Position numbers and translations under genes: made by a program. The notes under the pieces are model-generated. The model saw only the letters and a program-made list of their open reading frames with translations, was not told the origin of the DNA and did no database searches. Shown here in pieces: positions 49,570 to 64,000 of a stretch of DNA of 64,000 nucleotides. The DNA comes from Ferrimonas kyonanensis DSM 18153 (GTDB lineage Bacteria; Pseudomonadota; Gammaproteobacteria; Enterobacterales; Shewanellaceae), in the NCBI RefSeq assembly GCF_000425405.1, contig NZ_AUDJ01000015.1:1-64000 (forward strand). Direction: 5' to 3'. The stretch's first letter is position 1. Each line of letters starts with the position of its first letter.

Positions 49570-51033
49570 TTACAGCAGTGGCGCGAAGGTATAGAAGAAC
49601 TGCTCCACCAACTTTTTCCACATCGGACGCAACTGCCATTGATGGGCATCGATGCGGTTGGACTGCTGCAGATAGCGATCCAGTAACTGGCCCAGCTCCT
49701 GGCAGAAGTCCGGATCGTCGATGGCCAGCGACACCTCGGAGTTGAGCAGCAGGCTGCGAATGTCCAGGTTAACGGTCCCGATGATGCAATGGTCATCATC
49801 GATGAGCATCGATTTGGTATGCAGCAGGCCGCCATTGAAACGGTAGATCGCCACTCCGGCATTCAGCAGTTCGGTGAAAAACGCCCGGCTGGCCCACTCC
49901 ACCATAAAAGAGTCGTTCTTATCGGGAATGATCAGGTTAACCTCGACGCCACTCTGGGCGGCGGTGCGCAGGGCATCGAGCAGTTGCTCGCTGGGCACGA
50001 AGTAGGGCGAGGTCAGGGTGATGCTGTGTTTGGCGTGATAGATGCTCAGCAACAGCACTTGTTGGATGATGGACTCTGGCAAGCCCTGGCCGGAGGGGAT
50101 GACCTGGACCGAGTCTTCGGCATGGCGATGTGACAGCGGGCTTTCGACCTGGGGGAGGGCGATTTCATCCAGCAGTCGTTCGTCGGTTTCAAACTCCCAA
50201 TCCCAGCTTTGCAGGGCGGCCAGGGAGCAGACTGATGGCCCGGTGAGCCGAACCATAATGTCGATCCATTCGCCGACGCCGGCACTCTGCTTAAAGTAGC
50301 GGCTGTCCACCAGGTTCATGGAACCGGTGTAGGCGATGCGCTGATCGATGACCACAATCTTGCGGTGTTGCCGCAGATCCATGCGCCTTAAGAACATCCG
50401 CAGTGGGTTGACGCCCAGGGCTTTGACGATGCTGACACCGTTTTGCATCAGGGTGTCCGGCCAGCGACTGTTGAAAAATTCGCGGCTGCCGGCTCCGTCC
50501 AGCAGCAGGCGTACCGTGACCCCACGCTGACGGGCTTGAATCAGGGCATCGGCCACCTCATCGGCCAGACCGCCGGGATGCCAGATGTAGAACTCCATGT
50601 GAATGGTGTCGCTGGCCTGGTGAATGTCGTCGATGATGCGGCGCAGAATCGTTTGGCTGTTTTCAATCAATTCCAGATCGTTGCCCAGCAGAGCCGGAAT
50701 CCCCAAGCGGCGCAGACTCAATTCATGCAGAGGGCGGGCGTGCTGCCCCAGGCGCCGATCCGATTGCGCCTGGCGGTGCAATCGCTCGTTCCAGTATTTG
50801 AACGGTGCGGTCATCTCCTTGACCCGCTGTTTGCGCTTGCGACCAATGTTGAGTTCCCCGAACAGCAGGTACACCACCACGCCGAACAAGGGAATGATGT
50901 AGATCAGCAGCAGCCAGGCCAGCGAGACGCCAAATGGGCGCCGCTTGAGCACAATGCGCAGCGACACACCGGCAATCACGATCCAGTAGGCGGCCACCAG
51001 AGTCAGGGTCAACAGTTGGTAAAATTGGCTCAC
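49570..51033 (-). CDS. cls: Cardiolipin synthase (ClsA type)
   Basis: 487 residues. Two N-terminal membrane segments, then two phospholipase D motifs: HRKIVVIDQRIAYTGSMN (about residue 222) and HTKSMLIDDDHCIIGTVN (about 402). Condenses two phosphatidylglycerols to cardiolipin. 84 bp upstream of its start lies the truncated end of an EEP-family gene, suggesting cls once followed the intact copy. Confidence 0.94.
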   Translation of the reverse strand: MSQFYQLLTLTLVAAYWIVIAGVSLRIVLKRRPFGVSLAWLLLIYIIPLFGVVVYLLFGELNIGRKRKQRVKEMTAPFKYWNERLHRQAQSDRRLGQHARPLHELSLRRLGIPALLGNDLELIENSQTILRRIIDDIHQASDTIHMEFYIWHPGGLADEVADALIQARQRGVTVRLLLDGAGSREFFNSRWPDTLMQNGVSIVKALGVNPLRMFLRRMDLRQHRKIVVIDQRIAYTGSMNLVDSRYFKQSAGVGEWIDIMVRLTGPSVCSLAALQSWDWEFETDERLLDEIALPQVESPLSHRHAEDSVQVIPSGQGLPESIIQQVLLLSIYHAKHSITLTSPYFVPSEQLLDALRTAAQSGVEVNLIIPDKNDSFMVEWASRAFFTELLNAGVAIYRFNGGLLHTKSMLIDDDHCIIGTVNLDIRSLLLNSEVSLAIDDPDFCQELGQLLDRYLQQSNRIDAHQWQLRPMWKKLVEQFFYTFAPLL

Positions 51034-51117: not shown

Positions 51118-51181
51118 TCAGCCGCAACTGGGCTGATAATCAAACTGCACGTACAGTGGGGTGTGATCTGAGCTGGTGTAC
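51118..51181 (-). pseudogene. 3'-terminal remnant of an EEP-family gene
   Basis: On the minus strand this encodes YTSSDHTPLYVQFDYQPSCG and a stop, the same as the last 20 residues of the gene at 63486 (YTSSDHTPLYVQFDYSPTCS) except for three changes. In this frame, homology ends abruptly upstream of the tyrosine codon and a stop appears. A gene end left behind by recombination. Confidence 0.85.
51137..51181. repeat. Left direct repeat of the putative island (attL-like)
   Basis: 45 bp identical to 63505-63549 except at 51157 (T here, C there). Weaker similarity continues leftward to about 51110. Confidence 0.85.
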
Positions 51182-51471
51182 CGGGGGCATCATCGCTGAT
51201 GTTGAGCTTATCGAAGGCGTTGATTGGATTCCTCTTGTTAATAAACATCGGTTTGCCCATGCCGGGCCCCCAAAAGGCCGGTGTGGACACCTTAGAGTTG
51301 GGCAGCGCCAACTGGCGCGTCAGGGCAAATGGTTGACTTCAGGGAATCTCACTCTGGCTATCTGCCAGGATTGCCAATTCGAGTCTGGGTGGCCTGGGCC
51401 ATGGCTACTGCCTTGAAGAGTGAACCGGCAATGTGATGCAGTGATTGATTCGTTGGTGATGAGAAAGAGTG
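51182..51471. other. Left-end noncoding stretch of the island
   Basis: 290 bp with no supported gene. A minus-strand frame (MGKPMFINKRNPINAFDKLN..., start codon near 51257) runs into the repeat out of frame with the EEP remnant and may be a scrap of another gene. Confidence 0.4.
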
Positions 51472-52098
51472 TTAACGAAACAGTTTAATCTCTTTAGCCT
51501 TTACCTGAAATCGGTGTTCCCAATAGGTAATCTGCTCACGCATAAGGATAGAAAAACCACGGTAAAATTCTGTATTGGCATTAAGCTCCACACTCATCAT
51601 AAAACGTTCTACCCAGGGTAAAAGATGGTCGCCCAGCAACTCTTTGACTGCGTCTTCAACTTGAGAGGTACCCTCCTGCGCAAAAAGACGAGATAGCGTG
51701 GCCATAATAATGCCGATGTGGTCTAAAGGCTGCCGGTAGGGCAATTTAAACTCAATTCTATGGTCGTGGCAGAATGCCTCAAACGCTTGGGTGGTATCTC
51801 CATACATCAACCCTTCCGGATCGGTGTACACCGAGCCCCAAGGGTAAGCCAGTTTTTTGTGTGCTCCGACAAACAGTCGAAAATGATCCGCTTTGATGGT
51901 TTTCAATGATTCGGATTTCAGACTTTGCTTTAGGGTATTTAGTGCGTTGGACTCTATGTCGTTGTGCGCGGGCCAAGACTCGATGACGCCCTGATTAAGG
52001 CTATTGAGAAATGCCTGATCAGGAGTCGCGAACCAGATGTTGTGCAAAATGCCAAAGATGGCCGCTGCTTCCTGGAACTGTGGGTTATCTGACATCAT
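51472..52098 (-). CDS. dmsG: TorD/DmsD-family redox enzyme maturation chaperone
   Basis: About 208 residues, all helical. Motifs FRLFVGAHKKLAYPWGSVYTDPEGLMYGDTT and LDHIGIIMATLSRLF match the TorD/DmsD family (E-P-E-D-x-h region degenerate). These chaperones bind the Tat signal of a molybdoenzyme and hold export until cofactor insertion. ATG 52098 follows AGAGAGA; 52095 is equally possible. Last gene of the dms operon, after a hairpin. Confidence 0.85.
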   Translation of the reverse strand: MMSDNPQFQEAAAIFGILHNIWFATPDQAFLNSLNQGVIESWPAHNDIESNALNTLKQSLKSESLKTIKADHFRLFVGAHKKLAYPWGSVYTDPEGLMYGDTTQAFEAFCHDHRIEFKLPYRQPLDHIGIIMATLSRLFAQEGTSQVEDAVKELLGDHLLPWVERFMMSVELNANTEFYRGFSILMREQITYWEHRFQVKAKEIKLFR

Positions 52099-52122
52099 TC
52101 TCTCTCTATTGGGGGTAAGTGA

Positions 52123-52148
52123 AGGAGGCCTTATCAATAAGGCCTCCT
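52123..52148. other. Hairpin between dmsB and dmsG
   Basis: 11-base perfect stem AGGAGGCCTTA/TAAGGCCTCCT with a TCAA loop and no T run. May protect the upstream message or set a processing point. Confidence 0.6.
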
Positions 52149-52158
52149 GATGGTCAGT

Positions 52159-52794
52159 TTATACTTCCTGCCAATTCTCTACTTTGCCCTCGGAACTGCC
52201 GGAGGGGCGAGAGATCCTGGACTTGGTGATAAACAGGTTCGGGGTCGTGGTGCTTGGCGCGGGCAGCGGTGCTACGTTGGCGCGCTCAGCACCTGGGTAC
52301 TTCGCCTGTATCTCTTCTACCGTACCAAAGTCCAGAGCGCGCTGGGTGCAACCTGCTACGCAATGGGGCAGTTTGCCCTTGGCGGTTTGCTCTGGGCAAC
52401 CAGTACACTTGGTCATCACCTTACGGGTTCGGTCAATCTGGGGAGCGTCATACGGGCAGGCACGGGCGCAGCTTTCGCAGCCGATGCAGACACTGGCGTC
52501 AACGTGCACCAGACCGTCCGATTTGCGTTTGTGCATTGCACCTGTAGGGCAGGCTTTGACACAGACGGGTTCAGAGCAGTGGTTACAGCCTACAGAGGTG
52601 TAGTAGGCAAACACGTTGTTTTTCATTACGCCGTTGGCGTCCTGACTGCAGCTGCCACCAACATATTCATAGACACGACGGGGAATGCGGCCATTCTCTG
52701 CGTCGAATTTAGATTTACAGATCACGTGGCAGGCTTTGCAGCCGTTGCACTTGCTTTGGTCGAAGTGAAATGCGTACTGAACGTTATTACTCAT
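52159..52794 (-). CDS. dmsB: DmsB-type iron-sulfur electron transfer subunit
   Basis: 211 residues with four cysteine clusters for [4Fe-4S] centres: CNGCKACHVIC, CNHCSEPVCVKACP, CIGCESCARACP and CTGCPEQ...CVAGC. No signal peptide, so it is exported with the Tat-targeted DmsA. Passes electrons from the decaheme subunit to the molybdopterin subunit. ATG follows AAGGA; 12 bp after dmsA. Confidence 0.93.
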   Translation of the reverse strand: MSNNVQYAFHFDQSKCNGCKACHVICKSKFDAENGRIPRRVYEYVGGSCSQDANGVMKNNVFAYYTSVGCNHCSEPVCVKACPTGAMHKRKSDGLVHVDASVCIGCESCARACPYDAPQIDRTRKVMTKCTGCPEQTAKGKLPHCVAGCTQRALDFGTVEEIQAKYPGAERANVAPLPAPSTTTPNLFITKSRISRPSGSSEGKVENWQEV

Positions 52795-52806
52795 GATAGA
52801 TATCCT

Positions 52807-55356
52807 TTAAGCCTTGGCGACTTTGCAGCGACAGTTGGCGACTCCAGACGCTTTCTCGATGGGGGAGTTGTACTCATGGCTGGTCAATGCGTTGGCGCTG
52901 CCACCTTGATCGACACCGGCCACGGACTTGAAGTGTCGGCCCTGACCCAGAGCCACCACCCCGGGGGCGATGCGATTGGTTACTCTGGCTTCCACCTTGG
53001 TTTTTCCGCGAATGGATTCGATGACGATCATGTCATCATCTTTAATGCCCAACTCTTGAGCGGTTTGCTCGTTGATCCAGGCGCCAGAACGCAGGGCTTC
53101 CTTCATCCAGGGGCCCTGGTACTGAACGTGGACGTGAGACTTGGTGTGGTAGGTAACAAACTGCAGTGGGTAGTCTTTCAGGTGTTCGCTCTCATCCTGA
53201 ACTGATTCCGGTGTCACCATGTACTTTGGAATGGTATTTATATAGCCGCCGGCGTTACTCAGCCAGTACTCTGGTACACCGTCGGTATCTTCGTACACTT
53301 TGGCGGTTTTCTCTGCCAGATCGCGCAGGTAGTGCGAGTAGATGTCGATCTTGCCGCTTGGCGTGTGCAGGTGAATGTCATCTTTCTGTACATAATCCCA
53401 GTAGCCAACGTGGAAGCGGGCAGACTCTTCGGTCTCGTTGCAGGGGCGAGCCCACTTAACGATCCCTTTCTCCTGCATCTCCTTGAAGGTTTCTGGCATG
53501 TATTGCTGCAGGTCCGGGCGCATCACGTTACGGGTGAAGTTGTAGACCGAGTTGAGGGCATCCTCATCATTATTCAGAGCCAGGCCCATGGTATAGCCAG
53601 CTTCAATGCCCATGTGTTTGGCGATGCCTAGGCAAATTTCGAAGGTGGATTTCACATTACCCATAGGCGTAAGGGCTGTGGAGGTACCCACAATAAAGCC
53701 CATGGTGCCGGACTGCATATTGGTAGGGGCCAGGTCTTCACGTTCATACTGAGTAAAATCTGGCAGAACGTAATCGTTAACATACATGGATGGAATGAGG
53801 TGGGTGTCGATGCTGACAATCAACTCGACATCGTTTTCATCCTTAAGCAGTTCCAGAATTTTGTGGTTGTCTGCTTGTTGGTTGAATGGATTACCACCGC
53901 GGTTGAAGATTGCCTTCATATTGACACCCAAAACACCGTCGCCGGTAACCGGGTCGATCTCATCGGCAGGCAGGTGGATGTTGTCCTTAAGGACAGACAT
54001 GGTGGTGCCGTTCTTGATGGCTCGTGGCCAGCTGTGGATTTGCACCGCCCAGCGAGCGCTGGCCGCAAAATCCATCAGGGGCATGGGGTAGATGTAGCCT
54101 TTGGCATCGGCGTGTTCGCCGGTGCTGTTGCCTCGGTTACCGATGGCACCCACCATGGCTGCCAGAACGGTTACTGAGCGCACGTTGTCTTCGCCGCACA
54201 ATTGACGCTGCAAGCCCCAGCCCGCAACCACATAGGGAGCTTTGGCTTCGTACAGTTTCTTGGCAGTAGAGCGGATCACTTCGGCAGGGACGCCACAGAT
54301 CTTCTCAGCCCATTCAGGGGTTTTGGGGATACCATCTTTCAGGCCTAGGATGTGGCCTTGGTAACACTCCTCAGCAGGAACCTCAGGCAGTCTCACTGGG
54401 TTGCCATCGGCGTCCTTCTGAGTTGGGCTGTCCATCTCGGGCTCGGCGTAGAAGCCGTAGCATTTCTTCTTGACCCACTCCTTTTTTACCCAACCTTTGG
54501 TGATCAGTTCGTGGGCCATACCCTGGATCAGCGCGGCATCGGTACCTGGGCGGATAAAGTGGAACTCTTGCTCACGCCCTAGGTTAGTGTCGTTATAACG
54601 GAGATCAAAGTTAACAAAGGGTTTGCCTTTTAGAAGGTGGTTAAACTCGAAGCCATTACCGCTGCCTGAAGCCAGAGTCTCCAGCGGGTTGTTACCAAAG
54701 CCGAGAATGAAGTCACTGTTTTGGATCTCGACTGTGGAGGACCAGTCACGGGCATGGCCATGAACGCCGTAACTGATCTCCATGGCGCGATACACCTGGC
54801 TGAAGCTCATGGCATTGTGGGCTGCCAGGAATCCTCCTGAAGCATTGAGCAGGTTATCGACCCACCAGGCGGAATGGCTGCCACCATAGTTAGAGCCAGC
54901 GGCTCGGTAGATGGATTTTGGGCCGTGGGCAGCCTGGAGTTGTTGCAGCTTGTCACCGATTTCTCGGTAGGCCTGCTCCCAACTGATCTCCTCATACTGG
55001 CCGCTGCCTCGAGGACCAGTACGTTTCAGAGGAGTCAGCACACGGTCGGGGCTGTAGATCTTCTGTTTGGCGGAGTTGCCCTTGGCACATGGACGCATCT
55101 GACGGATGTCCATGTTTTCTTTCTCGGCGGTGGTCACATCTTCTGGCTCGATTCTGACGATGCGGCCATCAACACTGATCACCTTAAATGCGCAGCTGGT
55201 AGAACAATTGGTTTCACACAGGGTGATGGATTCCACCTCCTTCACTTCTGGGGCGGTGGGAGGGGTCACGGACTCACCGGACTTACCGCCACAGGCGGTG
55301 ACGCAGGACACCGCACCGGCGGTGGCGCTGAGTTTCAAAAAATCACGTCTTTGCAT
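52807..55356 (-). CDS. dmsA: DmsA-type molybdopterin oxidoreductase, Tat lipoprotein
   Basis: 849 residues. Twin-arginine motif RRDFLKL (3-9) followed by a lipobox VTAC (C22), so the protein is Tat-exported and lipidated. N-terminal [4Fe-4S] cysteines in CETNCSTSC and RPCAKGN, then the molybdopterin dinucleotide domains. NAMSFSQV aligns with DYSSAQI of E. coli DmsA, suggesting a serine molybdenum ligand. Expected at the cell surface, reducing DMSO or another oxyanion; the substrate is inferred from the family. Confidence 0.92.
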   Translation of the reverse strand: MQRRDFLKLSATAGAVSCVTACGGKSGESVTPPTAPEVKEVESITLCETNCSTSCAFKVISVDGRIVRIEPEDVTTAEKENMDIRQMRPCAKGNSAKQKIYSPDRVLTPLKRTGPRGSGQYEEISWEQAYREIGDKLQQLQAAHGPKSIYRAAGSNYGGSHSAWWVDNLLNASGGFLAAHNAMSFSQVYRAMEISYGVHGHARDWSSTVEIQNSDFILGFGNNPLETLASGSGNGFEFNHLLKGKPFVNFDLRYNDTNLGREQEFHFIRPGTDAALIQGMAHELITKGWVKKEWVKKKCYGFYAEPEMDSPTQKDADGNPVRLPEVPAEECYQGHILGLKDGIPKTPEWAEKICGVPAEVIRSTAKKLYEAKAPYVVAGWGLQRQLCGEDNVRSVTVLAAMVGAIGNRGNSTGEHADAKGYIYPMPLMDFAASARWAVQIHSWPRAIKNGTTMSVLKDNIHLPADEIDPVTGDGVLGVNMKAIFNRGGNPFNQQADNHKILELLKDENDVELIVSIDTHLIPSMYVNDYVLPDFTQYEREDLAPTNMQSGTMGFIVGTSTALTPMGNVKSTFEICLGIAKHMGIEAGYTMGLALNNDEDALNSVYNFTRNVMRPDLQQYMPETFKEMQEKGIVKWARPCNETEESARFHVGYWDYVQKDDIHLHTPSGKIDIYSHYLRDLAEKTAKVYEDTDGVPEYWLSNAGGYINTIPKYMVTPESVQDESEHLKDYPLQFVTYHTKSHVHVQYQGPWMKEALRSGAWINEQTAQELGIKDDDMIVIESIRGKTKVEARVTNRIAPGVVALGQGRHFKSVAGVDQGGSANALTSHEYNSPIEKASGVANCRCKVAKA

Positions 55357-55374
55357 GAGATTTTCCTTTGTTGG

Positions 55375-57363
55375 TTATAGGGCGTAGCTCAGGGTCAGCA
55401 TCAGCTGATGAGCCTGGTAGTTGCTGTGTGTCTGACCCAGGGTGACAAGGCCTGGAATGGCTTGGGGCGCGACCTGGGTGTAATCGCTGTCGTAGCCACG
55501 CAGGTAGCGGTATTGGGCGCGCAGGGTGGCATTGCTGCTGATGGCGTAATCGGCAAACAGCTGAGCGCGGTGGCCCCAGGCGGTGTAATCACCGAAGGGC
55601 GCTTTACCGGTGACGCTTGTATCGGAGTCCGACTCGCTGTAGTCGTAATCCAGACCCAAGGTCAGTTGGTCTTGCATCAGGCCGGTGTAATGACCGCCCA
55701 GGCCGATGTGGCTGAAGCTGTCCTCCACGTCTGCCTGCCAGTCGGCGGTGGCGAAGCTCTGACTGCCCAGCTGGCTGCTGTCAATCCACTGCTGGCCGCC
55801 ATAGAGGCTGAGGCTTAGCTGGGGATTGAAGCGGTAGCTGAGGGCCAGGTCGTAGCCGTGGTCGGTGGACTCGGTCAGACCCAACTCACTCTGGTCGTAG
55901 TCGTCCTTGGCGTAGCGGTAGCTGAGGTCCAGCGCCAGGCTGTCCATGGGCTGGTGGCTGATTTTGAGCTCGGCGCGGGTGCGGTCGCGGTCGGCCAGGT
56001 GGTACTTACGCAGCAGCGGGTTGTCCTCGGAGGAGGTCGTCTCACTGGCCTGGTAGGTGGAGCCGTCGCGGCTGCTGAGCTCGCCTTTGAGGGCAATGCG
56101 CAGGGTATCGATGCCCTTGAAGGTCAGCTTGGCGAACAGGCTATCCTCGTCGGTCTCCTCGCGGACCGAGTGATTGCGCTCGACGCTCTCGTGCTCATAG
56201 CCGCCCAGCAGGTGCCAGTCGGCAGACAGGCGGTAACGGGCGTCCACCAAGTAGCTGGTCTTCTCCAAGTCCAGCGCCACACTCTGATGGGTACGGCCAC
56301 GCAGCACGTCGTAATCGACGCTGGAGAACAGACGCTCTGGAGTGCGGTTATCGCGGTCACGGTAGGTCACCTTGGCGCGCAGCTTCAGACCCTTGGCGGG
56401 TTTGGTGCTGACGTTGAGGCGAGCGTCGGTGGTCTGCACCTTGCCGTTCAGGTGAGTGATGCCGTTGGGCACCCCACCTAAGGTGACGTAGTCCTGGTCC
56501 TGATACAGCCAGCCTTTGGCTAACTGACCGGTGACATTGATGCCGCTAAAGCGGTATTGACCCCGGGCGATGAGCTGGTGGGCTTCGTTGTCCGGAGACA
56601 GGGCCTGCAGGCTGCCGCGCTCGCTCTGGTCGATGCTGCTGTTGCTGTTATCAAACAGGCTGCCCTGGTAGTGCAGGGAGGCCAGCCAGGCATCACCGTT
56701 CATCTCGGTACCGGCATTGAGGCGCTGAGTCTGGCTGTCGATGGGGCGGGCGAAGTTCACCGGAGAGCGGTTGAGCTGAGTGCTGCTCGCCTGCTGGCCG
56801 GTTTTTTCTTCCAGGCGGTAATCCACATAGGCGCCCCAACCCTGGCCTTTGAGCTCAGAGCCCAGTTGCCACTGCTCGCGCTTGGCTTGCAAAGTGGTGG
56901 ACTGGGCGGAAGGCAGCATGACTAAATCACTACCTTCAAGACCATACAGGCTCTGGGCGTTGTCAGCCTTCACATTCAGTTGGCTCTGATAACCGACAGT
57001 GGCACCGAAACGCTCATTGCTGACGCTCACCTGAGCGGAGCCGGTGTCCATCCCCAGGTTATGGGCCTGAACCTTAACCCGGGTGGCGCCGGTGTAGACC
57101 GCGTCTGCTTGCAGGGCCGCGGCCAATTCACTGTCGTCGCCCAAATCGTTGGCGGCGCGGGCGTCATCCAGCTCGTTCCAGACGGCGGACACCCCCATGG
57201 CGCCGGCGGCACCGGGCGCTTCGCAGCGCTTGCACTGCCACTTGGCGGTGTTGACCTTGTCGGTATTGGCGCCCTTTAAGTTAAAGCCAGAATTAAACCC
57301 AGCAGACTGGGCCACGCCGGCCTGCATCAGGGCCAGAGCCAAAATACTCAGTTGGAATTTCAT
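55375..57363 (-). CDS. dmsF: MtrB/PioB-type outer membrane porin (DmsF)
   Basis: 662 residues with signal peptide (cleavage after AQSA), then the MtrB-type motif WQCKRC (C44, C47) followed by a long series of alternating beta strands ending in aromatic/aliphatic LTLSYAL. MtrB-type barrels sheath the decaheme cytochrome so electrons cross the outer membrane. 18 bp before dmsA and 10 bp after dmsE. Confidence 0.92.
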   Translation of the reverse strand: MKFQLSILALALMQAGVAQSAGFNSGFNLKGANTDKVNTAKWQCKRCEAPGAAGAMGVSAVWNELDDARAANDLGDDSELAAALQADAVYTGATRVKVQAHNLGMDTGSAQVSVSNERFGATVGYQSQLNVKADNAQSLYGLEGSDLVMLPSAQSTTLQAKREQWQLGSELKGQGWGAYVDYRLEEKTGQQASSTQLNRSPVNFARPIDSQTQRLNAGTEMNGDAWLASLHYQGSLFDNSNSSIDQSERGSLQALSPDNEAHQLIARGQYRFSGINVTGQLAKGWLYQDQDYVTLGGVPNGITHLNGKVQTTDARLNVSTKPAKGLKLRAKVTYRDRDNRTPERLFSSVDYDVLRGRTHQSVALDLEKTSYLVDARYRLSADWHLLGGYEHESVERNHSVREETDEDSLFAKLTFKGIDTLRIALKGELSSRDGSTYQASETTSSEDNPLLRKYHLADRDRTRAELKISHQPMDSLALDLSYRYAKDDYDQSELGLTESTDHGYDLALSYRFNPQLSLSLYGGQQWIDSSQLGSQSFATADWQADVEDSFSHIGLGGHYTGLMQDQLTLGLDYDYSESDSDTSVTGKAPFGDYTAWGHRAQLFADYAISSNATLRAQYRYLRGYDSDYTQVAPQAIPGLVTLGQTHSNYQAHQLMLTLSYAL

Positions 57364-57373
57364 CTAAGACTCC

Positions 57374-58351
57374 TTAGCGCTGCAGGGCGCTGCCGGCGGG
57401 GTGATTGGAGCCATGAATCTGGCTGTGGCAGTTCAGGCAGCTCTGACCGGAAGTGAACGCGTTCTCTCCTAAACCAAGAGCGTTATCGCCGTAGGCGCGA
57501 CTGGCGTGACCGTCACTGGCGTGGCAGCTCTGACACAACATCGGTGCCCGCTGGGTGAGCATGGCGTCATTAACACTGCCGTGGGGGTTGTGACAGGTAG
57601 AACACGACTCAGTCACCGGCTCGTGCTCCCACAGCACCGGGCCGCGCTTGTCGGCGTGGCACTGGTAGCAGGTGTCGGTTTCGGTGAGCTGAGTCAGACT
57701 GGCGTCGGTCAGAGAGCCATGGGGGGTGTGACAGTCACTGCACACCATCTCACCGGCACCCAGTCCATCAGATAGCGGGTGAGCGCTGCGCTTGTTCATC
57801 GCCAGCTTCTGTTCGGTGTGGCAACTGGTACAGACCGCCACCTCGTTGGAACGATTGACCACAGGGTCGGAGGCCACATGCACCTGGTGACAGCTGACGC
57901 AGGCCACTTCCTCGTCGGTGTGCACCGAATCACTCCAGTGAGCGCGACCATCGTCCTGGTGGCAGGAGAGACAGACGCTGTCCTGCAGCTCGGCAGAGAC
58001 GTTGCCGGAGGTGCCAAAGGTAATCATTGGCTCGTTCTTGCCGCGGTGCTTGCCCTGGGGGCCGTGGCAGGCTTCGCACTGCAGCCCCGCCATCGGGCTG
58101 TCGCTGCGCTCGGTGTTGCCGTGCACCCCGGCAAACACCGCCATGACGCTGTCACTTTTCTTGTGACACATCAGGCAGCTGTCGGCGCCTTTTTTGGAGT
58201 AGTTGCCCGACTGGAATTTTTCGAGGAGCATGCTTTCAGATGAATTGGCTGCCGTGCAGGCAGACCAGGGTATGGAAAGTACTAGAGCTAAGCCGGCAAG
58301 AGATCTGCGACCTAGGTTCACAGCTTTGCCCTTGGGGTGATGATATTTCAT
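57374..58351 (-). CDS. dmsE: MtrA-type decaheme cytochrome c (DmsE)
   Basis: 325 residues with ten CxxCH motifs evenly spaced (CLMCH, CEACH, CLSCH, CVSCH, CTSCH, CSDCH, CYQCH, CSTCH, CQSCH, CLNCH), matching MtrA/DmsE. Signal peptide near [20 protein letters not shown]. The ATG at 58351 has only a distant AAGG; a GTG at 58321 has AAGGG at good spacing and gives a more usual signal peptide. Carries electrons from the periplasmic side into the DmsF barrel. First gene of the operon. Confidence 0.95.
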
Positions 58352-58593
58352 TTTTGAATGTCGCCTTATCCAGAGACTTTTGATCTTTGTCCAGGCAACT
58401 GTGCAGCATGGCGAATTCGGAGATCTTCATCTTGTTTAAAATCCCCGATTGGTGACACCACGTTTTTTCAAATCATCTACTTTTTTTGTGAACTTATGTG
58501 ATGAGAGTGGATTGGATAGAGATCATTGCTGTAGCTTGAGTGATCGGCGGTGTAATATCGGTCATGTATTTGTTGACTTTGGTGAGGCATAGT

Positions 58594-59355
58594 ATGGATG
58601 ATATATCTGCTTTCAAAGGGGTGGAACTGATTGAGTATGCATCAAAAAATTATGTATACATGTCCTTTGATGCTCACCTTAGGCTTGGAGGAGTGAAAGA
58701 GGAAACAATTAACAAACTTTTGTGCTGCAGTTATGAAATTCATCTGGGAAAAGGCTCCACCTTTGCGCCGGAGTTTGACTCATCGGCAGTCTGCCACTTA
58801 AAACAAGGCCTTCTGAGGACAGATGTCGAGTTGGTGGGGGATAGGATTAGCAATAGCAGTTTCATTTTAAAAGAGGGGCTCTTTGTCAGTCCTGGTCCGG
58901 ATGCACTTTCAAATGTAATGTATCAGTGCCTTGAAGAGTCTGTCATTACCTGTATCCCCGCAGACGTGATATATCGCGAATCCATGAAAGATGAAACGCT
59001 ATTTCGATATTTAGTGAGGATTTTCTCTGAAATAAGCATGAAGCAGCGAGATTGGGCGCTGTTTAGTAATGTGGTGGGGAAAAGGGAACACATTATATTT
59101 TCGCTAATTTTGATGTGTGTTCACTCCAGTTTATATGGGAAAGACAATTTCACGGCTAGGTATCAGGACTTGTCTGATATGTCTGGTACCACGGTACAGT
59201 ATGTGCTTAAGGTAATCCATGAAGCATTTGGTGTCGGTGCGATTAGAAAGGTGTACGGGGGATTTGAAGTGTTGGACTTAAAACTTTTGTGCAGCATGGT
59301 GGATTACAGAATACTAAATGAGCTGATATCAAAGTTGGTTTTGGATCATGAGTGA
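58594..59355 (+). CDS. Divergent Crp-fold transcriptional regulator, no known family
   Basis: 253 residues from ATG 58594 (GAGG spaced by 6); earlier ATG/GTG codons (58564, 58540) are less well placed. The N-terminal half looks like a cyclic-nucleotide-binding-type beta roll (YEIHLGKGSTFAPEF..., HLKQGLLRTDVEL). The C-terminal part is a winged helix, RYQDLSDMSGTTVQYVLKVIHEAFGVGAIRKVYGGFEVLD, resembling the Crp/Fnr HTH. No Fnr-type N-terminal cysteine cluster; C62 and C63 lie adjacent. Base composition is much more AT-rich than its neighbours. Position suggests control of dmsEFABG. Confidence 0.65.
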   Translation: MDDISAFKGVELIEYASKNYVYMSFDAHLRLGGVKEETINKLLCCSYEIHLGKGSTFAPEFDSSAVCHLKQGLLRTDVELVGDRISNSSFILKEGLFVSPGPDALSNVMYQCLEESVITCIPADVIYRESMKDETLFRYLVRIFSEISMKQRDWALFSNVVGKREHIIFSLILMCVHSSLYGKDNFTARYQDLSDMSGTTVQYVLKVIHEAFGVGAIRKVYGGFEVLDLKLLCSMVDYRILNELISKLVLDHE

Positions 59356-59432
59356 TTCGCACCGAAACGATAGTGGGAATAGCACTTTTTTTGGTATAAA
59401 ATCAAGCTTGTTTGTAGCTTTTCATGATTATA

Positions 59433-59453
59433 AAGGGAGCTGGGTACTCCCTT
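59433..59453 (+). terminator. Possible weak terminator after the regulator
   Basis: Stem AAGGGAG/CTCCCTT (59433-59439 and 59447-59453) with a seven-base loop; only a loose T-rich tail. Confidence 0.4.
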
Positions 59454-59526
59454 GTCATTCTTGTGGGCCCAACTGGATTTTTTATGCGCTGACACCTGTG
59501 TGGTGTCCGAACAACCCCCACAATTC

Positions 59527-60018
59527 CTAATGCCAACCAGGCTTGTTCGCTAGCGTCAGTTCAAGTGTACTGTTCTGAGCGCGAGGCTCAGTTGCGCCAG
59601 CCAGCAGAAAGCTGGCTCCGAGTTGTTTCAGCTTTTCTGTATAGGCCAGATCGATGACTGGCAAGACCTCCTCCAAATCCTGAGGGAGTCGGGCCCTAAT
59701 ATCCACTGTGGTTTTGTCCAGTCGTATCTGCCCAGTCGGGTCTCGGCCGAATGAACTGTGCCAAGAAGGTTCTGAGTAGCTGTAACGTCTACAGAATACG
59801 CGCTCATTAACCGTAACGAACAACAGGGGGATGAATCTATGGGTATAGCCAGCTCGAATCTCATGAGACAAGGCTTTTTCGATCATCTGGGCCATCTCTT
59901 GTTGGCTTTTAGGGGGCTCCTGAGATTTGCGCAAAGCCAGACGTAAGGGCTTTATGGCCTGCAGCAGTATCAGTCTGGGAAAGCCAAAGGTCAGTTTGAG
60001 AAAGTTGGTGTGAGCCAT
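59527..60018 (-). CDS. DUF2255-like protein
   Basis: 163 residues, no membrane segment. RFIPLLFVTVNERVFCRRYSYSEPSWHSSFGRDPTGQIRLD followed by YTEKLKQLGASFLLAGATEPRAQNSTLEL recalls DUF2255, a flavin-reductase-like split barrel group of unknown function. The N-terminal 50 residues are basic and may be an extra helix. Lies between the dms regulator and the SDR; the role is not evident. Confidence 0.6.
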   Translation of the reverse strand: MAHTNFLKLTFGFPRLILLQAIKPLRLALRKSQEPPKSQQEMAQMIEKALSHEIRAGYTHRFIPLLFVTVNERVFCRRYSYSEPSWHSSFGRDPTGQIRLDKTTVDIRARLPQDLEEVLPVIDLAYTEKLKQLGASFLLAGATEPRAQNSTLELTLANKPGWH

Positions 60019-60104
60019 TTATGAGAACTCATTTAGTTATGTTAAAGGAGCACCTTGAGATCAAGCTGCTCCGTAAGAGTGAGACAGGGTTCAGAGATAC
60101 GAAC

Positions 60105-61052
60105 TTATGGAGACCAGCTTATTCCGGTCTTCTGCTCTGATACTGCCCACAACCTATTTGCCATTTCTCGGTCCAGGGCATGAGGCATCAATATGCATTT
60201 GCCCACCGGGCCGACCATTTGCGCCCGTTTGGTGGGCCCGTAAAACGCATAAGGCTCCAGATGGTCTTCGGTGGCGCACAGCACCTCTGGCCAGGATCCG
60301 CGCTCGGCAGACTGCGCCAGCGGCGACAACAGCTTGAAAAGGATCCTGGTGGGCAGATTGGCCTCCTCCTGAGACAGGGTGGTTCTTGCTGCGCCGGGAT
60401 GACACACATGAACCTGCATCTTTAACCCGGCTTCTCGAACCCTGTGTTGCAACTCATAGGCAAACACCATTTGCGCCAGCTTGCTGTGGCTGTAGCTGTT
60501 CATCGGATTGTAGTTGTGGTCAAAGTTCAGGTCATCAAACTGGATGGTTTTAAGGCCCATGTTGTAGCCCATACTGCCGACGACCACGATGCGACCAGCC
60601 GATTCATTGACCCTGTCAAACAGCAAACCGCACAGCAGAAAGTGGCCATAGTGGTTGACGCCCAGTTGGCTTTCGAAGCCATCGATGGTCATCTCCTGCT
60701 TGGCCACCTGGGCGATGGCGGCGTTACAGATAAGGGCATCGATTTTCGGGATGTCACGCTTAATGGCATCTGCGGCGCTTCGCACCGACTCCAGAGATGC
60801 CAGGTCCAGTTGGATAAAGGAGAGCTCCGCGACCGGGTACTGCTGCTTGATCGCCTCGATGGCAGAGGCTGCCTTGCCGGGGTTGCGGCAGAGCATCACC
60901 ACCTTGGCCTCTTTACTGACCAGTACCTTGGTGGCCTCAAAGCCGGCGCCCACATTGGCTCCGGTGACTAGGTAGGTCTTTCCTTTCAGTGATGAGAGGC
61001 GCTCCGGGGTCCAACCTTTTGGACCATAAGGGTTTGGGAGTAGTTTGCTCAT
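60105..61052 (-). CDS. Short-chain dehydrogenase/reductase
   Basis: 315 residues from ATG 61052; the frame is open 21 codons further. Rossmann motif TGANVGAGFE (about 30-39), CNAA in place of NNAG, catalytic serine region VVVGSM and YSHSK (Y about 187, K about 191). C-terminal features resemble protochlorophyllide-reductase/retinol-dehydrogenase-like SDRs. NAD(P)-dependent; substrate unknown. 69 bp after the hydrolase gene on the same strand, probably one operon. Confidence 0.9.
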   Translation of the reverse strand: MSKLLPNPYGPKGWTPERLSSLKGKTYLVTGANVGAGFEATKVLVSKEAKVVMLCRNPGKAASAIEAIKQQYPVAELSFIQLDLASLESVRSAADAIKRDIPKIDALICNAAIAQVAKQEMTIDGFESQLGVNHYGHFLLCGLLFDRVNESAGRIVVVGSMGYNMGLKTIQFDDLNFDHNYNPMNSYSHSKLAQMVFAYELQHRVREAGLKMQVHVCHPGAARTTLSQEEANLPTRILFKLLSPLAQSAERGSWPEVLCATEDHLEPYAFYGPTKRAQMVGPVGKCILMPHALDREMANRLWAVSEQKTGISWSP

Positions 61053-61121
61053 AATATTCCAATTCAGTCGCTTTCCTGGCCAGGTGAGAATGCCTGTCCT
61101 GCAGCGAAGTGCCAATAAGAG

Positions 61122-62069
61122 TTAACTGCCGTGCTTTTGAAAAAACTCATTTATTTTGGTAACGGCTCTGTCCACATCCTTGTCGATGTCGTAAAGGCTG
61201 ACGTGACTGGCGCCTTCGATCTCATACAGTTCTTTGGGTTCGCTGGCCGCTTCGACAAAGCCCTGAGTGAGCGGGGCGGTATCTGCATCTTTACCGACGA
61301 TGCCTAGGAAGGGGGTGTAGAGGAAGGGCGCCATGGCTGTGGCGTTGTAGCGTGGGTAATCTTCATTGACGAAGAGCGGCGCCATGTGGGTGTAGTTGGG
61401 GTTGGTTTCCCTTCCGGCACGGGCGGTCATGTAGTAGTCGTAACCTTCGTGCATGGTGCTGGGAGCGTCTTCAGCGGGAGGCTCGCTCATACCCAATATA
61501 TCCACGTTCTCCTGGATGCCGGTTTCATAGTATTTCTGATGGGCGTCGTTGGCGGCAGTCAGTGCGGCAACAGCGGTCTCTCTGTCCATCACCCCGAACA
61601 GACTTGCGGCGTTGTTCAGCATGCCACTGACGGTGGCTATGGCCTTCAGGCGTTTGTCAGTCAATGCAGTGGTGACAATATGGCTGGCCCCGGCGCACAC
61701 GCCCAGTCCGAAGAAGCGTGCTCTGTCGACAAAATCGTGCATGCGCAGGAAGCTGATGGCATCGGACAGGCCTTCGAGTTTTGCCGGGGTGTATTCGTAA
61801 GAGCGCAGCTTACCTTCGCTGTCGCCAAACCCTCTGTGGTCAAACACCATGGCCGCGTAACCCAGGGCTGCCAACCTCTTCCCGTACACTGAGCCGGTCT
61901 GTTCTTTGACCTGATTGAAGGCCATGGTCATGACTATGGTGGGGTATTTTTGGCTGGCATCGAACCCTTCGGGCAGAAATAGCAGGCCAGCGAGCTGATG
62001 GCCTTCGCTGGGAAAACTCACCTTGTTGGTGCCTGGTGTCAGCAGCTCTGAATTCAGTTTCAGTGACAT
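61122..62069 (-). CDS. Alpha/beta hydrolase with cysteine nucleophile elbow (YcjY-like)
   Basis: 315 residues. HRGFGDSEG precedes the nucleophile elbow GLGVCAGAS, where C125 replaces the usual serine, as in dienelactone-hydrolase-like and YcjY-type proteins; the probable histidine is in EGASHVSLYD. Cytoplasmic. First gene of a likely two-gene unit with the SDR, divergent from the AraC regulator. Confidence 0.85.
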   Translation of the reverse strand: MSLKLNSELLTPGTNKVSFPSEGHQLAGLLFLPEGFDASQKYPTIVMTMAFNQVKEQTGSVYGKRLAALGYAAMVFDHRGFGDSEGKLRSYEYTPAKLEGLSDAISFLRMHDFVDRARFFGLGVCAGASHIVTTALTDKRLKAIATVSGMLNNAASLFGVMDRETAVAALTAANDAHQKYYETGIQENVDILGMSEPPAEDAPSTMHEGYDYYMTARAGRETNPNYTHMAPLFVNEDYPRYNATAMAPFLYTPFLGIVGKDADTAPLTQGFVEAASEPKELYEIEGASHVSLYDIDKDVDRAVTKINEFFQKHGS

Positions 62070-62282
62070 TTGTTATTCCTCATTCATGGTAGTGGCGCTG
62101 CTGCTGGCCAGATGTGCGAGACCCGTTGTGGAGTCCGGAGGTTGATACCAGCAGCGTTTTTGTTGGCGTAATATGACTATATGTCTTGGCGGTGGGGCGT
62201 CTCTAGGTGGATTTCTCTTCAATTTTTGCCTATTTGTCTCAGAACGTTGATTTGTACGTTATCGGGATCTAACCTCGTGAAT

Positions 62283-63185
62283 ATGGAAAACAGTAAGATA
62301 AAAGCGTTGATAGAGACGCTGACGCCCTCTGAAGGCCTGACCGAAACCGGCATTGACGGGGTACAGCTGTTCAGGATCTCCAACACCTTTACTCGCTCGC
62401 CGGCGGTTTATTCTCCTGGCATATGTTTGCTGGTCAGTGGCAGCAAGGTGGCCTACCTGGGAAGCGAGGCGCACTCCTATGATCAGAGTAACTATTTCTG
62501 CTGCACTATGGCGATGCCCATAGAGGCAGAGATCCCCTTTGCCAGCGAACAGGAACCGGTGCTGGGGGTTCTGATCTCTCTGGACTGTGGGGTGCTGACC
62601 GAGTTAGCCATAGAGTTCGAAGCGGCGAACCTGCCGACTCAGGTTGCAATGGCCAGCGAATTCGTGCCCGGGTTAGCGGTGGTGAAAAAGGATGCTCGAT
62701 TCGATGAGGCAGCCTATCGTCTTTTGCAGCTAGTCGGGGACAGATCTGCGACAGGACTATTGGGGCGGGGACGGCTGCGAGAGCTGTTCTATTTGGTGCT
62801 CACTGGAGGAGCAGGGCAGATGGTGCGTCAAGCCTATGGAGTGGGTAATCAGATTGCCAAGTCGATTCGTTATGTGCGTGAGCATTTGAGCAACACCATC
62901 ACCATTGATGATATGGCCAGTCAGGCCGGCATGAGCCGAGCCGTATTTCATCGTAAGTTTAAAGGGGCAACCACTCTTTCTCCATTGCAGTTTGTCAAAA
63001 GCCTTAGGCTCAATGATGCGGCCATGCGTGTTGCCTCTGGGGTGACCATTAGCGAAGCGGCAACGTTGAGCGGGTACAGCAGCTCTTCGCAGTTCAGTCG
63101 AGAGTTTAAGCGTCAATATGGCGCGTCGCCTCGGGAATGGATTCAAATCAGTGTCCAACAACTAGGGGATACCCAGTCTATCTAG
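62283..63185 (+). CDS. AraC-family transcriptional regulator (YqhC-like)
   Basis: 300 residues from ATG 62283; GTG 62277 also possible. The N-terminal cupin-like domain (LFRISNTFTRSPAVYSPGICLLVSGSKVAYLG) is the type found in YqhC. The C-terminal double HTH (about 195-295) has IDDMASQAGMSRAVFHRKFKGATTLSPLQFVKSLRL and ISEAATLSGYSSSSQFSREFKRQYGASPREW. YqhC activates aldehyde reductase genes; here it likely controls the divergent hydrolase-SDR pair. Confidence 0.88.
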   Translation: MENSKIKALIETLTPSEGLTETGIDGVQLFRISNTFTRSPAVYSPGICLLVSGSKVAYLGSEAHSYDQSNYFCCTMAMPIEAEIPFASEQEPVLGVLISLDCGVLTELAIEFEAANLPTQVAMASEFVPGLAVVKKDARFDEAAYRLLQLVGDRSATGLLGRGRLRELFYLVLTGGAGQMVRQAYGVGNQIAKSIRYVREHLSNTITIDDMASQAGMSRAVFHRKFKGATTLSPLQFVKSLRLNDAAMRVASGVTISEAATLSGYSSSSQFSREFKRQYGASPREWIQISVQQLGDTQSI

Positions 63186-63485
63186 AGCCCTAATTCATAA
63201 TAAGCTCCCCTTTGAAGGCCTATTGATAACAAGCAATCAGAGTTTATTTTGAACTTGAGCCGCTTTAGTGGACACCAAAATCGTTAGAATGGACTGCCCG
63301 CGGTTGATTAGACATCTCCAGGCTATTCGCTGTGATATTGAGTTGCAATCAAATTTGTAAGGGTTAAAAAGTCTGATTGCCACTAATTTTTAGGCATCCA
63401 ATAGGTAAGAGTGATCTGCCGAGAGTCTCATTGCGATCAGAATAGGATCTCTATATGAAGCCAGTTATCTATAGATAAACAGAGT
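63186..63485. other. Right-end noncoding stretch of the island
   Basis: 300 bp, AT-rich, no supported gene. Contains a perfect 14-base palindrome TTATCTATAGATAA (63465-63478) immediately beside the EEP gene end. Confidence 0.5.
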
Positions 63486-64000
63486 TCAACTGCAGGTTGG
63501 ACTGTAATCAAACTGCACGTACAGCGGGGTGTGATCTGAGCTGGTGTACTGGCTGAGTACGTCGGCACTGTCAGCCACTGGTGTCAATTGACAGCTGTAG
63601 AGGATGTGGTCGAGTTCATGGCCAAAAAACTGCTTAATGCCGCTGCTGTCGGCGAACTGCACCGAAGCCAGCCCTTGTCGTTGGGCCAGGGCGTCCAGCA
63701 GAGCCTTGCGGCCATCGGACCAGGTATTGAAATCACCGGCGAAGATTACCGGGCCTCGATGAGCATCGATGGCGCCCTCCAGGGTGTCCAGCTGTCGCCG
63801 GTAATCGGAGTTGGTGACGAAGTTGATGCCGTGAATGTTGATCATCAACAGTGACTGGCCGTCGGCCATGGTCACTTCCGATATTAACGAGGCCTTGGGG
63901 GTGTTGGTGACCGGCTCGGTCGGGGCCGACAGTTGCAGATAAGTAGACTGAATCGGACTGGCGGCCAGGCTCATGACGCCAGACTGATGGCCATCAAACT
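63486..64000 (-). CDS. Endonuclease/exonuclease/phosphatase family protein, partial
   Basis: C-terminal 170 residues; the frame is still open at the window's right edge (GVMSLAASP preceded by FDGHQS), so the start lies outside. EEP motifs: NIHGINF, IFAGDFNTWS (metal-binding D and N), HELDHILYS and the catalytic SSDHTPLYVQF. The last residues duplicate the remnant at 51118. Substrate unknown (DNA, phospholipid or inositol phosphate are all used by the superfamily). Confidence 0.88.
   Translation of the reverse strand, partial: FDGHQSGVMSLAASPIQSTYLQLSAPTEPVTNTPKASLISEVTMADGQSLLMINIHGINFVTNSDYRRQLDTLEGAIDAHRGPVIFAGDFNTWSDGRKALLDALAQRQGLASVQFADSSGIKQFFGHELDHILYSCQLTPVADSADVLSQYTSSDHTPLYVQFDYSPTCS
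63505..63549. repeat. Right direct repeat of the putative island (attR-like)
   Basis: 45 bp matching 51137-51181 with one mismatch (63525), inside the coding end of the EEP-family gene about 17-61 bases from its stop. Confidence 0.85.

Follow-up and report, generated by a model that had tools for sequence, protein, structure and literature searches.

A probable old insertion site beside cls that appears to have exchanged its respiratory cargo

In Ferrimonas kyonanensis, a dms-type respiratory operon and an SDR/hydrolase/AraC unit lie between two 45 bp direct repeats, at the junction of a cls-type phospholipase D gene and an EEP-family gene. This spot looks like an old insertion site with replaced contents, and not like one mobile element that arrived recently. 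In the reading that we favour and consider on balance probable, the 3′ end of the EEP gene received a single ancestral insertion before the split from the closest sampled relative, and the cargo was later replaced, probably with the assistance of ISs.

The window, the whole stretch of DNA that was analysed, comprises 64 kb (C9:1-64000) of a 4.93 Mb draft genome. Its direct repeats (51137-51181 and 63505-63549) have the same orientation and match at 44 of 45 bases, with one mismatch. All 18-mers that are repeated in the window come from this pair, which excludes a chance origin of the repeat. An assembly artefact was ruled out as the source, as the window contains 0 Ns and the same arrangement occurs independently in the closest relative (G009). 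The right copy is part of the 3′ end of an intact EEP gene on the minus strand (63486..64000, on to contig position 64355), which encodes 289 amino acids and matches Pfam Exo_endo_phos (E=1.5e-15) and, above its cut-off, NCBIfam NF003842. The left copy belongs to a cut-off EEP 3′ end (51118..51181, minus strand), which reads ...QFDYQPSCG before an EEP-like stop codon at 51118-51120, 84 bp from the cls start codon at 51033. The cls gene itself (49570..51033, minus strand), an ORF that beside EEP recurs across the genus, is the left chromosomal neighbour; its name comes from an earlier sequence-only reading of this DNA. Left of the core the two copies diverge (19 of 26 bases match over 27 nt), giving YQPSCG on the left and YSPTCS on the right. 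The sequence-only reading had described the repeats, the intact and the cut-off gene end and the divergence beside the core, and each of these features was recovered. It had also reported no integrase, in agreement with our finding of no integrase or tRNA among the ORFs and features of the island. An exact pattern scan with the 45 bp core over the genome contig collection returned no match.

Related genomes show the site in its unoccupied state. The cls gene was found in all 13 other genomes of the genus that were compared, and EEP directly adjoins cls in 12 of the 14 genus genomes, as expected if the 3′ end of EEP is the point of insertion. The prediction that relatives should carry an intact EEP gene ending about 84 bp from cls was borne out: the gap from cls start to EEP stop is 85 bp in G005, 85 bp in G012 and 86 bp in G008, and 84 bp here and in G009. 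In G005, G012 and G008, the closest to our species among the 12 unoccupied genomes, DNA similarity is continuous from cls into EEP with no island between, and the left remnant aligns with their cls-adjacent EEP ends. The EEP proteins of relatives end in YSPVCG or YSPSCG, as read from the sequences, and a full EEP frame that ends in YQPSCG is regained when our two flanks are placed end to end. The left copy is thus the native gene end and YSPTCS on the right a replacement C-terminus, as had been proposed from the sequence alone.

The same EEP–cls junction is occupied in G009, the closest sampled relative (88.0% DNA identity in cls and 90.5% in the spacer), by a different cargo. The G009 insert measures 10,163 bp, compared with 12,323 bp here, and encodes a response regulator, a histidine kinase, a DsbI-type protein, a molybdopterin oxidoreductase, an FeS protein, a TorD-type chaperone, a formate-dehydrogenase-gamma-type cytochrome b, a porin and a LysR-type HTH fragment. 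The last of these (L035:16708-17109) contains only the HTH part, and its reading frame enters the right arm shared with our genome. In both genomes the similarity of the left EEP remnant to EEP breaks off at the identical point and gives way to a short common arm (51182..51206; 21 of 25 aligned bases match). A second common arm on the right (63390..63504; 85 of 115 bases identical) holds the replacement EEP stop and the C-terminus YSPTCS. At E<=1 (blastn), the two inserts resemble each other solely in these last 115 bp on the right. The sequence-only reading had supposed that one dms island inserted once and thereby made its repeats; because G009 has both copies and the same junctions around a different respiratory operon, the dms island as the maker of the repeats is not supported. 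G009 indeed comes close to the arrangement that the earlier reading had set against its own proposal (this gene order, or both repeats, without the dms genes), having both copies with no dms genes between them.

Shared junctions and arms around unrelated contents could also arise if one larger ancestral island had contained both operons and a different part had been deleted in each lineage. We regard this as very unlikely: except for the right arm, neither insert retains a remnant of the cargo of the other (blastn, E<=1), and the best matches of either cargo in the genome of the other species (about 67–69%) lie at other places. Somewhat unlikely, in our judgement, is that related integrase-driven islands inserted twice, independently, at the same EEP 3′-end attachment site, each with its own respiratory cargo and with the integrase lost or supplied in trans. 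Such a history would fit the break point common to both genomes and the replacement of the gene end, which is also seen at known gene-end attachment sites, and a recent entry would fit the nearly identical 45 bp repeat here. However, no recombinase gene was found among the ORFs or the Pfam/NCBIfam matches of either island, the two G009 copies match at only 37 of 44 bases, and the right arm was found in 152 family genomes only at this locus, in our genome and in G009. This confinement of the arms to one locus speaks for a single ancestral event more than for an active family of elements. The parts shared by the two islands are 74–92% identical, roughly as are the flanks (88–90%). Against a single ancestral insertion, the left arm is short (about 25 nt), which makes the case for its homology less strong than for the right arm, and the right arm, with 74% identity, has diverged somewhat further than the flanks.

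We hypothesize that foreign DNA became linked to the chromosome within the EEP 3′ end in the common ancestor of our species and G009. This insertion would have left the native EEP end as a stub beside cls and supplied the gene with another C-terminus, followed downstream by a new arm of 115 bp. From then on, the joins would have stayed fixed and shared while the contents changed between lineages. The cargo found here was probably swapped in later, through recombination at IS copies, at the 45 bp repeats or at both, and the repeats would have been homogenised in our lineage.

The repeat copies bear on the order of these events. The G009 copies match at far fewer positions than ours, and our left core matches the G009 left core at only 34 of 44 bases despite the 90.5% identity of the adjoining spacer, so the near-identity of the copies here is a later event. 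Had our copies diverged since the shared event at the rate of those in G009, one mismatch or none in 45 would have a probability of about 0.004, by a hand binomial estimate that ignores selection on the coding copy. At least one base, the T in GATCTGAG, is common to both of our copies and present in no other copy compared. These comparisons indicate that, in our lineage, the left core took on the sequence of the right core by homogenisation or was re-used in a new exchange. Against the favoured reading, homogenisation of the repeats would also be expected from a fresh site-specific re-integration.

The first join may also not have been site-specific. Donor DNA with an EEP gene end could have entered by homologous recombination within EEP on one side and end-joining on the other, in which case the repeat would be the stub of the old end. 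Such a history concerns the first step alone and leaves room for replacement of the cargo afterwards. It needs no integrase, and the right copy does have a divergent gene end beside a nearly identical core. We nevertheless consider it unlikely, because the near-identical core here would then need a separate homogenisation and no donor locus with such an arrangement was found in the 152 family genomes.

Turning to the cargo itself, the left part of the island is a dms operon on the minus strand. It encodes a dmsE decaheme cytochrome (57374..58351; TIGR03508 above cut-off, 10 CXXCH motifs), a dmsF/mtrB-like outer-membrane barrel (55375..57363; TIGR03509 above cut-off, MtrB_PioB E=6e-174), a dmsA-like molybdopterin reductase (52807..55356), a dmsB-like FeS subunit (52159..52794; TIGR02951 at 213.2 bits, one bit short of the cut-off of 214.1) and a dmsG-like chaperone of the DmsD/TorD family (51472..52137; Nitrate_red_del E=1.1e-24, and PRK11621 E=2e-32, below cut-off). 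By homology, we predict that this operon belongs to the type used for extracellular DMSO/iodate respiration (PMC11302344, PMC9732548). To its right follow a putative Crp-like regulator (58540..59355, plus strand; only HTH_Crp_2, E=0.016), a DUF2255-like ORF (59527..60018, minus strand; PF10012 E=1.1e-7), a short-chain dehydrogenase (SDR; 60105..61115, minus strand; PF00106 E=3.6e-26), an alpha/beta hydrolase (61122..62069, minus strand; family-profile matches) and an AraC-family regulator (62181..63185, plus strand; AraC_N plus HTH_AraC). The gene content given by the sequence-only reading therefore stands for the dms operon and the SDR/hydrolase/AraC unit; the regulator that it assigned to the operon has only a weak Crp-type HTH signal, and the DUF2255-like ORF was absent from its description. 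The G+C content is 56.6% in the dms operon, 50.9% in the right half and 41.9% in the Crp-like regulator, with flanks of about 58%, and this unevenness marks the island as a mosaic.

The dmsEFABGH operon of Shewanella oneidensis serves extracellular DMSO/iodate respiration (PMC11302344, PMC9048795), and dmsEFAB clusters, some of them duplicated, are known in Ferrimonas and Shewanella (PMC9732548). Our operon resembles that of S. oneidensis in the order dmsE, F, A, B plus chaperone and in the presence of a decaheme cytochrome, an MtrB-type barrel and a DmsA-like reductase, but no dmsH was seen adjoining it. Its DmsA-like protein may also stand apart from that system: the best NCBIfam match, TIGR02166, scores 610 bits, below the cut-off of 777.7, and the closest relative among the 152 family genomes (in G006) has 61% amino acid identity. 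None closer was found in 395 order and 369 class genomes, at a strict threshold with few candidates scored per genome. A scan of the genome contig collection yielded no DmsA relative, and the plasmid collection no close DmsA.

Remnants of ISs lie near both inner edges of the island. On the left, similarity to G009 ends at 51203, and a few bases on, at 51207-51216, begins an IS110-type end that runs to 51291. This terminal fragment of an IS110/IS1111-type IS (51207..51291) is 77–80% identical to the ends of a multicopy element in G012, G008 and G009 and has the GGCGTTGAT motif that precedes intact copies. The intact copies in G012 have the same end, each preceded by different sequences with attC-like motifs, and a G012 copy encodes a Transposase_20/DEDD_Tnp_IS110 protein. 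Copies of this IS110-family element were seen in G012 (L022, L028, L032 and L034), G008 (L023) and G009 (L027 and L031), the two in G009 lying at contig ends. The attC-like motifs suggest that the element may be of the integron-associated IS1111-attC type (cf. PMC11187229). A group II intron was rejected as the identity of this left repeat family because Rfam gave no match at the gathering threshold within the IS copies and no credible one across the region; by its transposase, the element is of the IS110 family.

On the right, a terminal fragment of an IS3-family IS (63249..63291) matches, at 88–93%, the ends of an element in our own contig C29 and in G012, G008 and G005, the transposase of which has an rve domain. 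About 100 nt without explanation (63292-63389) separate this remnant from the right arm, so the right edge of the cargo does not coincide with an IS end. An imperfect inverted repeat with 34 nt arms (71%), 122 nt apart, covers the IS3 remnant and extends as far as the right arm (window positions 63212-63401); it could represent a small non-autonomous element or be a product of chance. With IS remnants close to each inner edge, replacement of the cargo with the help of ISs is likely, though not proven.

The site resembles gene-end genomic islands, such as those associated with dusA (PMC4482086), in its insertion at a conserved gene end, its direct repeats at both ends and its variable cargo. 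In contrast to the dusA-associated islands, which lie at a 5′ end, ours lies at the 3′ end of EEP; no integrase was found in either island here, the gene end was also replaced, and the cargo seems to have been exchanged inside fixed junctions. Mobile mtrCAB loci flanked by transposases have been described (PMC8805035). As in those loci, respiratory conduit genes here break a syntenic region with IS traces nearby, whereas the operon here is dms and its site is shared with an unrelated respiratory operon in a sister species.

Bacteria of this group presumably expand their respiratory versatility by acquiring modules. In the present case, an exact chromosomal join is found empty in some related species and filled with one cargo or another in others, which makes the swapping of whole respiratory operons testable. 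Direct repeats around an island need not date the arrival of the genes that now lie between them. It is conceivable, although quite unlikely, that the EEP–cls junction is a dedicated exchange slot, in which selection would keep a respiratory module while recombination at the fixed arms and repeats swaps electron-acceptor pathways.

Further dms/mtr-like clusters occur in the same genome (G000) apart from the island, at C15:803-6577, C8:110536-112844 and C9:165908-168233. To the right of the EEP gene (L003:10050-14914), ORF translations suggest SCO1-like, beta-propeller and copper-chaperone-like proteins and a cytochrome-c-like protein with DUF1566-like repeats.
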